Shown here piece after piece: positions 21,004 to 23,515 of a stretch of 64,000 nt of DNA (within the stretch, counting starts at the first letter, position 1; each line of letters begins with the position of its first letter). This stretch comes from Acetohalobium arabaticum DSM 5501 (GTDB taxonomy: Bacteria > Bacillota > Halanaerobiia > Halobacteroidales > Acetohalobiaceae): contig NC_014378.1 of the NCBI RefSeq assembly GCF_000144695.1, forward strand, positions 1-64,000. Direction: 5' to 3'. Position numbers and translations under genes: made by a program. The notes under the pieces were generated by a model. The model made no database searches. It worked only from the letters and a program-made list of their open reading frames with translations, and was not told where the DNA came from.

Positions 21004-21174
21004 ACTTTTTTAACCATAACTACTGATGATGTTACAAGAGTAATGAACAAAGTATTACTCAAAGCTGACTTATTTGAAGTGCTTAATGAAGAAAAACCAA
21101 CTTTAATTAGTGACAATAGTACTCAATTTACTACTAATGACTTTAAAGCAATGCACATAAATTTATATCTTTGA
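21004..21174 (+). pseudogene. fragment of an rve-type (IS3-like) transposase
   Basis: One frame reads TTDDVTRVMNKVLLKADLF, then EEKPTLISDNSTQFTTNDFKAM, and stops at 21172. LISDNxxQFT is the second catalytic Asp motif of integrase-core transposases of the IS3 kind. Only about 55 codons remain, and a stop lies immediately upstream, so this is a dead remnant. Its 3' end overlaps the convergent 180-codon gene by about 12 bases. It marks an insertion scar at the edge of the accessory stretch. Confidence 0.6.
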
Positions 21175-21705
21175 TACTTTAATTAAATAGTCTTGAATTA
21201 AAGTTATATTTTGGATAACTAAATCTAACAATAATTTCATTTCTTGTGGACCATGTTCTTGATTTTCTGCACTAAAATCATAATATAATGCTTTTACCAC
21301 TTCTTGAATCCGATTTATTTTTTTATTTGAAGAACTACTCTGATAAATTTTCATTAATCTATCCGCTTTAGCTTTTGCTTTATCTACCAACGTATTTGTT
21401 TGTTGATTTAAATTATAAAAATTAATATTCTTTTCTGCAATTAAAAAAGAAAAATGATAAAAAATATCTTCTATTTTTTTGGAACGCATACTTAGATTAT
21501 TAGTTTTTATAGTTAACTTATAATTAAATAGATAAATAGAAGTTAATAATAAGGCTATTTCTTGTTTTGATTTTTTCGTACTCTTTAATTCTTCCATTAA
21601 CTCTTGGTTTTCATTGGAAAGTAAATCAATCAATTCTTCTGCTATTTCAATCTCCGAAATAACATTACTTCTATTAAATACTTTTTTTAATACTTTAAAT
21701 ATCAT
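21163..21705 (-). CDS. hypothetical helical protein, 180 residues
   Basis: Not recognised. The product is almost wholly charged helix (SEIEIAEELIDLLSNENQELMEELKSTKKSKQEIALLL), without a signal peptide, membrane segment or cysteine motif. A hydrophobic patch LLLTSIYLFNYKL near 52-64 is too polar at its ends for a clear transmembrane helix. AAGGAGG seven bases before the ATG shows that it is probably translated. It lies between a transposase fragment and a region of inverted repeats and may have arrived with mobile DNA. Codon use is AT-rich like the neighbours. No function can be proposed. Confidence 0.6.
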   Translation of the reverse strand: MIFKVLKKVFNRSNVISEIEIAEELIDLLSNENQELMEELKSTKKSKQEIALLLTSIYLFNYKLTIKTNNLSMRSKKIEDIFYHFSFLIAEKNINFYNLNQQTNTLVDKAKAKADRLMKIYQSSSSNKKINRIQEVVKALYYDFSAENQEHGPQEMKLLLDLVIQNITLIQDYLIKVSKI

Positions 21706-21754: not shown

Positions 21755-21777
21755 CCTCATATTCTATAAATATGAGG
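21755..21777. terminator. hairpin of 9 bp
   Basis: CCTCATATT (21755-21763) pairs with AATATGAGG (21769-21777) around a five-base loop, in the leader of the minus-strand gene. It is flanked by A- and T-rich bases but its role is unclear. Confidence 0.35.
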
Positions 21778-21924
21778 AGGTTTCACCACTAACTCCATAT
21801 AACTTAGGTGACCAAATACAAGTTATACTTCAACGTTCTCATTATTAAATTTTTTTAATCACATGTTATTATAATTATACTATTTTTTAACATAAAATTC
21901 AAAAAATAATAAGTTAAAATCAAA

Positions 21925-21952
21925 AAAGAGGTGAATTTTAATTCACCTCTTT
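21925..21952. terminator. tetraloop hairpin, terminator-like
   Basis: AAAGAGGTGAAT (21925-21936) and ATTCACCTCTTT (21941-21952) form a perfect 12-bp stem with a four-base loop. The A/T ends would terminate transcription in either direction. No intact gene adjoins it, so it may belong to lost mobile DNA. Confidence 0.55.
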
Positions 21953-22017
21953 AAATAATATAAACGAATTTCATAAATATGAAGCCTATCATTTCAAGAG
22001 TTTATAGAAATATAAAC

Positions 22018-22330
22018 AGGCTTCACTCCATTTTTATCGTAATACATAATAGGCAAAAAAACACAGAAAGGAGTGAAGCCTATTATGTATGTTCAACAAT
22101 AAAGGTTATTTTTCTTGGAAGAATTGATATTTTCTAATTTAGACCTTGCTAAAATAACACATGAAATTAGATGTAATTTCAATAAAGGACCAACTGGTTA
22201 TTAACTCTATTATTGAAGAATTAGTTAATAAGCGAGTGCAAAATAGCCCGACAGAATTTAATTGGTCTTGGTTTAAAAATAGAAAGGAAATGCTTAATCT
22301 TGCAATTTAAAATATTTATAAGGAGGTGTG
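22018..22330. mobile_element. degenerate insertion-element remnant with nested inverted repeats
   Basis: AGGCTTCACTCC (22018-22029) and TACATAATAGGC (22043-22054) are both complementary to parts of one 20-base stretch at 22070-22090 (GGAGTGAAGCCT overlapping GCCTATTATGTA). Just after it a broken frame reads MYVQQ, stop, then LDLAKITHEIRCNFNKGPTGY, and later FNWSWFKNRKEMLNLAI, with several stops. This has the look of a decayed transposase behind its terminal repeat, but I cannot name the family. No intact gene lies between 21706 and 22611. Confidence 0.4.
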
Positions 22331-22331
22331 A

Positions 22332-22602
22332 AACCCTGGTTATAACCAAGTTGTGGTTTAACAACTAGGTTTCGGTAAACCACCACCTAGCTCTATTAAG
22401 TTGGAAGGAAAAGAGTTTGCCGTAATTACTAACTTCAAGGGCAAGGTAACGCCTTGGTTTTTGTAGCATCTTGTTTTCAAAGGCAAATTGAGAATTGCCA
22501 ACTGTGCAGAAGTTGCCCTTAGTGGTTGAAACCTGTGAAACCACAATTTTTAATCTATATTAATTATATATAGATAGTTCTAGATAAGTTTTTATAACCA
22601 GG
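22332..22602 (+). ncRNA. HEARO / IscB omega-RNA-like structured element without an ORF
   Basis: A roughly 270-base non-coding block with GC content above its surroundings. CCTGGTTAT (22335-22343) pairs with ATAACCAGG (22594-22602) and closes the element. GTGGTTTA (22353-22360) pairs with TAAACCAC (22376-22383), and CTAGGT in its loop (22365-22370) can form a pseudoknot with ACCTAG (22385-22390). Downstream are GGGCAAGGTAACGCC, an ATTGCCAACTGTGCAGAAG segment and a final GTGGTT/AACCAC hairpin. These resemble HEARO RNAs, now known as guide RNAs of IscB/IsrB nucleases. That assignment is from memory and not computed. No nuclease gene is present: a DUF296 gene follows ten bases later. The element sits right after GTGA. 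Confidence 0.55.
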
Positions 22603-22611
22603 ATAAAATTA

Positions 22612-23058
22612 ATGGAGTATACAGAAGCAAGTATCGGAAGAATATTCATTTTACGTCTTGAAACTGGAGATCAAATTCCAGAAACAATTGAAGAATTTGC
22701 TGAAACTAAAGGAATTGACTCTGCAACAGTATTATTTATTGGTGGGGCAGATAAAGAAGGGGAGGTTGCTGTAGGACCTAAAGATGGCTCTGCTAAGCAA
22801 CCTATTCCTGATACCAAAAAATTAAGTGGAGTTAGTGAAGCAATAGGAGCAGGAACAATTTTTACTAACGAAAATAAGCTTCCAAAATTACATCTGCATT
22901 CTTCTTTTGGGCGAAAAGATAAAACAATTACTGGATGTACAAAAGCAGGAGGAATAGATATTTGGAATATTGGGGAAGTTATTATTTTAGAACTTAATAA
23001 TCATTCAGCTTATAGAAAGATTGATCCTGAAACTGGATTTGAGCTGTTAGAAGTTTAA
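22612..23058 (+). CDS. DUF296/PPC-domain protein
   Basis: The 148 residues form one PPC (DUF296) domain: FILRLETGDQIPETIEEFAETKGIDSATVLFIGGADK, then the conserved histidine strand KLHLHSSFGRKD, then GCTKAGGIDIWNIGEVIILEL. Related proteins in plants bind AT-rich DNA. Bacterial stand-alone versions are uncharacterised and may bind a metal through the HLH histidines. The local SD is poor (AGGA at 22600-22603). A good AAGGAGGTG at 22320-22328 is separated from the ATG by the structured element at 22332-22602, so expression of this gene may depend on that RNA. A strong terminator follows at 23091-23131. Confidence 0.9.
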   Translation: MEYTEASIGRIFILRLETGDQIPETIEEFAETKGIDSATVLFIGGADKEGEVAVGPKDGSAKQPIPDTKKLSGVSEAIGAGTIFTNENKLPKLHLHSSFGRKDKTITGCTKAGGIDIWNIGEVIILELNNHSAYRKIDPETGFELLEV

Positions 23059-23090
23059 TTTTAAACTTAATTTTAATGTCATGTGAATCT

Positions 23091-23138
23091 CTCCATCTAA
23101 ATCTGTGATTAAATCACAGATTTAGATGGAGCTTCTTT
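23091..23138 (+). terminator. terminator after DUF296 gene
   Basis: The 19 bases at 23091-23109 (CTCCATCTAAATCTGTGAT) pair perfectly with 23113-23131 and are followed by CTTCTTTATTT. The perfect stem and tight loop indicate a factor-independent terminator. Confidence 0.75.
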
Positions 23139-23139
23139 A

Positions 23140-23515
23140 TTTACTATGGTGGGTTTACAACACTATTATCTCTTACCATCCGTGAACTACTCGGCAATGA
23201 ATTACCCGTAATATCAAGCAAATTACCCAATCGGCGTGTCCAACGTCTACCCAGTCAAAGACTGGTTATACAAAAAGCGTCACTACTCCTATCTAGCATA
23301 GGTGCTAGACTCAGAGATACTTTTATTGCTTAAGATAGAAGTGTAAGTACCTCTATAAGTGTTTACTAGAAGATTTAGTGTCTTCTATCTACAACGAGCA
23401 CCCTGAATATTTTACACAGTAGAGGTTTAGCTACTGCAACCTCCAATATTCACTTGTGCGTAATTTACAGGCCTTGCTTGTAAATGTTTCACTTCTATTT
23501 CCTATCTATAATATC
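23140..23515. other. structured non-coding region, unassigned
   Basis: No credible gene lies in these 375 bases, but paired segments abound. CCAGTC/GACTGG (23251-23265) is a triloop hairpin, and TCTAGCA/TGCTAGA (23292-23309) is a tetraloop hairpin. AGATAGAAG (23333-23341) pairs with CTTCTATCT (23382-23390). A long imperfect helix pairs GCAC-GAATATT (23398-23411) with AATATTC-GTGC (23445-23459) and encloses GAGGTT/AACCTC. GC content exceeds that of the neighbouring genes. It could be a structured RNA on either strand, or the right end of a lost mobile element. I do not recognise a known family. Confidence 0.4.

Follow-up and report, generated by a model that had tools for sequence, protein, structure and literature searches.

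Introduction

Mobile genetic elements must limit the damage that they inflict on their hosts, and the known solutions to this problem are insertion into safe target sites and self-splicing. In the established layout of TnpB omega-RNAs, the guide is located 3' of the scaffold, beyond the right end of the element. In mRNAs, the Shine-Dalgarno (SD) sequence is usually separated from the start codon by 5-9 nt. In IStrons, a group I intron renders the insertions harmless through splicing (PMC4227781). In phage T4 genes 25 and 38, a hairpin cuts the spacing between the SD and the AUG from 27 to 11 nt and from 22 to 5 nt, respectively, and is required for efficient initiation (PMC3014915).

Here we describe a locus of Acetohalobium arabaticum that can be compared with these systems. 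The locus lies in a 64,000-nt stretch, hereinafter the window, of a genome (G000) that consists of a single contig of 2,469,596 bases. We consider it likely that positions 22326-22602 are the remnant of a TnpB-type OMEGA element that landed directly after the SD of a PCC/DUF296 gene and then lost its left end and tnpB, and that the terminal stem of this remnant forms a split ribosome-binding site.

A structured insert upstream of the DUF296 gene

The original prediction held that a structured RNA had stranded an SD upstream of the DUF296 start codon, and both the coordinates and the strength of the fold agree with this: the 293 nt fold with -78.5 kcal/mol, whereas shuffled versions average -62.9 (z -3.35), and 1 in 200 of these is as good as the native sequence. 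The features of the locus are collected in Table 1. The strands of the GTGGTT/AACCAC hairpin occupy 22522-22527 and 22539-22544, GTGA lies at 22328-22331, the internal sequence GGCAAGGTAACGCC at 22440-22453, and the 3' arm of the terminal stem, TATAACCAGG, at 22593-22602.

Table 1. Coordinates of the features of the locus in the window
Feature	Positions	Strand	Basis
Host SD and target site, AAGGAG	22320..22325	+	found at an identical position and spacing in the G003 orthologue, which lacks the insert
Inserted element, 277 nt	22326..22602	+	missing from orthologues; right boundary is that of the multi-copy elements
Extended SD AAGGAGGTG, host AAGGAG plus element GTG	22320..22328	+	sequence
5' arm of the putative bridging stem, CCTGGTTATA	22335..22344	+	10 Watson-Crick pairs with 22593-22602; equalled by 1 of 200 shuffles
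TnpB-type omega-RNA core	22371..22549	+	match of model R2; covariation on alignment A4
3' hairpin GTGGTT-GAAACCTGTGA-AACCAC (helix 7)	22522..22544	+	4 of 7 pairs vary on both sides; 98% of cells paired
Right end TTTTTATAACCAGG, including the 3' arm 22593-22602	22589..22602	+	common to IscB-type copies (G000, G008); present as AAGCAGG in TnpB-type copies (G003, G005)
Predicted guide ATAAAATTAATGGAGTATAC, adjoining the right end on its 3' side and extending over spacer and start codon	22603..22622	+	inference from the known TnpB omega-RNA layout
PCC/DUF296 gene, 148 aa, ATG at 22612	22612..23058	+	PF03479 (PCC, formerly DUF296), E 2.3e-20

The absence of a nuclease at the locus, another element of the original prediction, was confirmed: no nuclease ORF adjoins the insert, the next ORF being the PCC/DUF296 gene itself. 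The comparison with relatives that had been proposed as a check also bore out the insertion. The DUF296 orthologues in four other genera are 68-73% identical, and in three of these four genera, those whose upstream DNA was read directly, a plain SD is followed by the start codon, without the insert. The G003 orthologue reads TTAAGGAG-GAGCTGAAA-ATGGAATATAC, and the window reads TATAAGGAG, then the 277 nt, then ATAAAATTA-ATGGAGTATAC. Excision of 22326-22602 in silico yields AAGGAG-N9-ATG, with the same 9-nt spacing as in G003, and comparison with the empty site finds AAGGAG only once, without target duplication, as in IS200/IS605 insertions. Judged by this alignment of filled and empty sites, 22326-22602 is an insertion that splits AAGGAG from the ATG. 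By comparison with relatives, the element starts at 22326, such that AAGGAG is the sole certain host part of AAGGAGGTG and the GTG is derived from the element.

Several features were observed nearby. An inverted repeat, GCTTCACTCC...GGAGTGAAGC, flanks CCTATTATGTAT/ATACATAATAGG at 22005-22085 and is possibly a relic of a small mobile element. Just 5' of the SD, at 22190-22309, there is, by eye, an apparent C-terminal remnant of an ORF (ending in NQLVINSIIEELVNKRVQNSPTEFNWSWFKNRKEMLNLAI and a stop codon), for which no start was found. Farther upstream, on the minus strand (21766-21848), a c-di-GMP-II riboswitch (67.6 bits) precedes a 180-aa ORF (21163-21705) that has no Pfam match.

Affinities of the RNA

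For the covariance model R2, nine RNAs linked to tnpB in G005 and G003 were used, with the window sequence left out. On the 64-kb window, it yields a single match, at 22371-22549, over its full length (1-169), with 43.3 bits and an E-value of 4.2e-11, R2 E-values being rough because of the short calibration. In the joint alignment A4, which is biased towards structure, 19 of the 53 pairs vary on both sides (4.1 on average after shuffling), and the share of cells that pair is 96.7%, compared to 38-48% in slid controls. Across 398 genomes of the phylum, model R3 detected the RNA only in G000 (the window), G003, G145 (three copies), and G372 (one copy), and all four copies in the latter two genomes, which represent a distant family, are located directly 3' of tnpB or of a truncated 3' part of tnpB. 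The end of the omega-RNA coincides with the right end of the element at 22602, which is also the end of the multi-copy elements, and the position of the guide falls outside the element. By this homology, the window RNA is an omega-RNA of the TnpB (IS200/IS605-like) type.

The original prediction labelled the RNA omega-RNA/HEARO-like. The first half of this label stands, given the homology to RNA found 3' of tnpB, whereas the second half does not: the Infernal check with RF02033 gave no match at E 10 in 21900-23200. As positive controls, two true HEARO-IscB loci elsewhere in G000 score 128.7 bits with the same model. R2 produced no match to the IscB-linked RNAs (L032, L091-L093, L211-L213), and in Rfam scans of the window, no family (riboswitches, group I intron, and others) matched the insert RNA. 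The search for nuclease genes elsewhere in the genome was partly successful, recovering IscB loci and, at E 1e-10, no TnpB of the element's family. As tnpB is missing from the locus and the search at E 1e-10 recovered no family member, the window element is classed as a remnant and not as an intact member of the TnpB elements, and its RNA is probably an orphan.

Related elements and their sites of insertion

At the DNA level, the same element was not detected elsewhere in the genome, and neither a search of 59 genomes of the class with the omega-RNA core nor a search of plasmid and phage collections with the insert recovered a relative of the core. The outer frame of the insert, in contrast, recurs before polA in G000 and before several genes in another genus, and copies in most genera of the order were detected with a covariance model that spans the SD, the hairpin, and the start codon. 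This model, R1, was derived from alignment A2, where the rbr row has an artificial loop and the mutS2 row a shortened spacer, and its role was limited to finding copies.

The relatives fall into two types, associated with unrelated kinds of nuclease. The copies in G000 (polA), G006, and G008 immediately adjoin the 3' side of an IscB gene (NF040563). The G008 copies are identical up to ...TATAACCAGG and thereafter continue into different host genes, which shows the hairpin to be a mobile element's right end. A search with the right end recovered a variant, TTTTTATAAGCAGG, in 13 copies in G003 and 12 in G005; these represent an element of the TnpB kind (TIGR01766, E 5e-14; NF040570, E 7e-19, below its cut-off). 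In these G003 and G005 elements, a structured RNA sits between tnpB and the right end, and seven of the G005 copies have lost most of tnpB and kept the omega-RNA.

Individual copies show features of their own. In the genome of the window, an IscB element follows the polA SD (L032:2090-3724, that is, G000:C1:369089-370723); the RNA that precedes it looks HEARO-like (GCTACGTTAT) when read by eye but is not matched by RF02033. G008 likewise carries an IscB element before polA (L095). In a second element of the polA type in G000 (L211, at G000:C1:2135844), iscB is interrupted by an insertion that holds a degraded gene for a Y1 transposase and a disrupted tnpB-like gene. G006 (L091-L093, L212-L214) holds three IscB elements and three iscB-less copies with an IscB-type left end, two of which retain the long IscB-type RNA; in this complete genome, Y1_Tnp has no match. 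The iscB-less G006 copies terminate in AAGGAGG, which means that the right end itself is an SD. The TnpB proteins of L107:119-1267 and of L219/L220 have no obvious zinc finger, and in their RuvC-III motif, VHNSAALVIGRR or VHHGAALVIARR, H replaces the expected D; to judge from these motifs, they may be catalytically altered or dead, though multi-copy. A PDB search with the G005 TnpB returned no match.

The insertion rule can be read from the left junctions of these elements. Left ends were read independently for 12 TnpB-type copies, and GGAG precedes the left end in 10 of them, for example, AAAAGGAG joined to GTTGAACAGCTC in G145 and GATGGGAG joined to GTTGAAACAGTTTATTAAAATC in G372. The IscB left end, AAGGAG followed by CTATGAAACAGCTTATAAA, is similar, with GGAG being part of the search pattern, such that this flank is not independent. 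The original prediction placed the insertion after GTGA, and the junctions of the relatives replace this with insertion after the GGAG of an SD. At the other side, a start codon lies 4-12 nt past the right end in 34 of 36 copies, compared to 7.35% of random window positions, and in 21 of the 23 TnpB copies, which were found by the right-end sequence or the RNA model, ignoring the start codon. A start codon was counted if its ORF comprised 50 aa or more or, for ORFs cut off by the edge of the retrieved DNA, 25 codons or more. Among the genes hit, identified by eye from translations, are polA (in G000 and, independently, in G008), smc, spoVT/abrB, flgK, and an aldehyde ferredoxin oxidoreductase-like gene. 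In the empty allele of the window locus, the guide from 22603 (ATAAAATTAATGGAGTATAC) would adjoin AAGGAG, which would fit the SD being the TAM; perhaps, the SD serves as the TAM, the suggested target motif, of both the TnpB and the IscB nucleases.

Similar arrangements were noticed farther afield. A pattern scan of genome contigs with the exact SD and CCTGGTTATA gave 17 matches, three of them in Halanaerobacter jeridensis. Among the other matches, at least two show SD, hairpin, and start codon by eye, namely, those before a dehydrogenase gene of Domibacillus mangrovi (L045:3406-3500) and before rpsN (type Z) in a Bacillota MAG (L038:6725-6775), and most of the remainder are chance-like; the two loci suggest, from their sequences, that the arrangement extends beyond the order. 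Short SD-hairpin-AUG structures precede spoVT/abrB in four genera (L066, L067, L068, L076), where the arms differ and yet pair; this hairpin looks like either a retained scar or a host feature. The eleventh TnpB-type copy in G005 (L157) also precedes a gene of the spoVT/abrB family.

A candidate split ribosome-binding site

Each of the 22 copies examined has an SD followed by an arm that can pair with the terminal 10 nt of the element, although this pairing is imperfect in the three most distant copies. In most of the 22, the SD matches AAGGAGGTG at 8-9 of the 9 positions and lies 3-6 nt ahead of the arm. The arms vary in a compensatory fashion (CCTGGTTATA/TATAACCAGG, CCTGCTTATA/TATAAGCAGG, CCTGATTATA/TATAATCAGG, CTTGGTTAT/ATAACCAAG). 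For most copies, at most 7 of 200 shuffles are as good; the imperfect arms in G145 and G372 form 8 of 10 pairs and are equalled by 14-21 of 200 shuffles. The stem encloses a loop of 4-30 nt in the IscB-type copies and the solo copies; loops that contain the omega-RNA measure 248-292 nt. In the TnpB elements, the 3' end of tnpB contains the SD and the 5' arm (AAGGAAGGTGGTGAAAATCCTGCTTATA in G005, AAAGGAAGTGTAACGCCTGAGTTTT in G145), and the intact IscB-type relatives carry a second SD and the 5' arm just upstream of the right-end hairpin.

The order of SD, stem, and start codon, with conserved pairing, is that of T4 gene 25. The stem 22335-22344/22593-22602 would draw the upstream AAGGAGGTG close to the ATG, such that ribosomes could still initiate on the DUF296 gene, and we infer translation across the stem from this geometry. 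In the original prediction, the terminal stem covered the one SD-like stretch left before the ATG; the comparisons point rather to a stem that joins the upstream SD with the start codon. Two observations weigh on the other side. The spacing left after folding is about 9-15 nt, and 15 nt in the window, which is longer than usual and counts against bridging, T4 gene 25 working at 11 nt, and the 3' arm holds an AGG at SD distance, such that the stem could alternatively mask a weak SD. Because the SD and the arms would form a split ribosome-binding site like those of T4 genes 25 and 38, the insertion is probably silent in translation, a counterpart, at that level, of IStron splicing.

Origin of the window copy and alternative explanations

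The putative scenario for the window starts with a TnpB-type (IS200/IS605-like) OMEGA element inserting directly 3' of the DUF296 AAGGAG. A subsequent deletion from the native AAGGAG to the SD in the tnpB tail would have removed the left end together with tnpB, while retaining the omega-RNA, the right end, and the terminal stem. The 5' end in the window, GGTGTGAAACCCTGGTTATA, is closer to the G005 tnpB tail (GGTGGTGAAAATCCTGCTTATA) than to the left end (GTTGAAACAGTTTATTAAAA). The stretch from the arm to the omega-RNA is about 60 nt shorter in the window than in G005, which means that the deletion was not one clean SD-SD event or that further deletions followed. The short solo hairpins in G005, and those before spoVT in G002-G004, look like products of the same process in IscB-type elements. 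The original prediction offered capture as a cis-regulator or mobilisation in trans. Both are less likely than a deletion scar, which better fits the failure to find a TnpB of the element's family in the genome and the similarity of the 5' end to the tnpB tail. Most likely, then, the window copy is such a scar, with the guide RNA and the SD-bridging stem kept; on the same comparisons, it would have arisen by SD-SD deletion, and no active TnpB would now be using the RNA.

The main competing explanation, which we regard as unlikely, is that the window copy is a complete non-autonomous omega-RNA mini-element that a TnpA still mobilises in trans and that a TnpB from another locus may protect. Such mini-elements are indeed found in the order, as attested by the seven tnpB-deleted G005 copies that combine a left end, omega-RNA, and right end, and by the IscB-type copies without iscB in G006, and G000 encodes Y1 transposases, four of them intact. 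However, the window copy is the only one in its genome, which contains no TnpB of the family; its left end is doubtful, GGTGTGAAACCCTGGTTATA fitting the tnpB tail better; none of the Y1 genes of G000 is linked to the ends of these elements, and G006 has no Y1 match at all.

Domestication as a translational switch, in which the SD-like AGG is masked by the stem or DUF296 is turned on or off by a protein or RNA that binds the omega-RNA, appears quite unlikely. The strong fold and the perfect arms would suit such a device, as would the overlap of the predicted guide with the start codon: excision of the guide RNA would conflict with translation of the host gene, and omega-RNA processing, were TnpB present, would cut the mRNA at the start codon. 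Yet, the insert is confined to one species among the orthologues examined, and the same layout before the unrelated polA, smc, flgK, mutS2, and spoVT genes favours a generic property of the element.

HEARO identity was tried and rejected: RF02033 has no match at E 10, and R2 matches the window and not the IscB-linked RNAs, which refutes this identity for the RNA core. That the insert is a HEARO/IscB element with iscB lost is accordingly highly improbable, even though the IscB elements of G000 share the right end and the insertion rule with it and one of them lies before polA. An ordinary long 5' leader is, for all the frequency of structured leaders in Bacillota, hardly conceivable and, indeed, refuted by the lack of any such leader in the orthologues and by the homology of the RNA to that of mobile elements.

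Altogether, the identity of the RNA, the fact of insertion, and its position are well supported, and the scar origin and split ribosome-binding site function are the best reading of the comparative data.

Implications and comparison with known systems

Beyond the window, we lean towards a more general proposition, namely, that TnpB and IscB OMEGA elements of Bacillota share ends that insert after a host SD and carry an SD and a bridging stem, such that insertion is silent in translation, and that nuclease loss leaves behind SD-hairpin-AUG scars, with or without a guide RNA, that the host requires. If true, this would be a third solution to the problem of host damage, in which the element lands on a ribosome-binding site and rebuilds it via a stem, and would explain the presence of such elements just upstream of the start codons of housekeeping genes. 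The copies, whose loops run from 4 to about 290 nt, would also offer a natural set of split ribosome-binding sites that bears on the tolerance of initiation for structure between the SD and the AUG. The part of the open-access literature that was covered contains no description of OMEGA elements that target or rebuild an SD, which is weak evidence of novelty; the IStron is the concept that comes nearest (PMC4227781).

Among the closest described counterparts is the TnpB omega-RNA of IS200/IS605 elements, such as ISDra2, where, too, a structured RNA lies 3' of tnpB and ends at the right end, the guide falls outside the element, and insertion occurs 3' of a short fixed motif. The window differs in that it lacks tnpB and its RNA matches no Rfam family, that the fixed motif is the GGAG of an SD, and that the right end and the upstream SD together appear to form a split ribosome-binding site. 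HEARO (RF02033)/IscB is likewise an OMEGA element, and the IscB-type elements of G000 and its relatives have their right end and insertion rule in common with the window element, but the window RNA is not HEARO and the locus has no iscB. IStrons, which combine a group I intron with IS605 or IS607 (PMC4227781), resemble the window element as insertion sequences with an RNA device that spares the host gene; unlike in IStrons, there is no intron in the window element, and the RNA would remain in the mRNA, with the stem carrying the SD to the start codon. Finally, the split ribosome-binding sites of T4 genes 25 and 38 (PMC3014915) share with the window a hairpin between the SD and the AUG that shortens the effective spacing, but whereas the T4 hairpins are short features of the host genes, the stem described here belongs to a mobile element, recurs before unrelated genes, and encloses up to about 290 nt.
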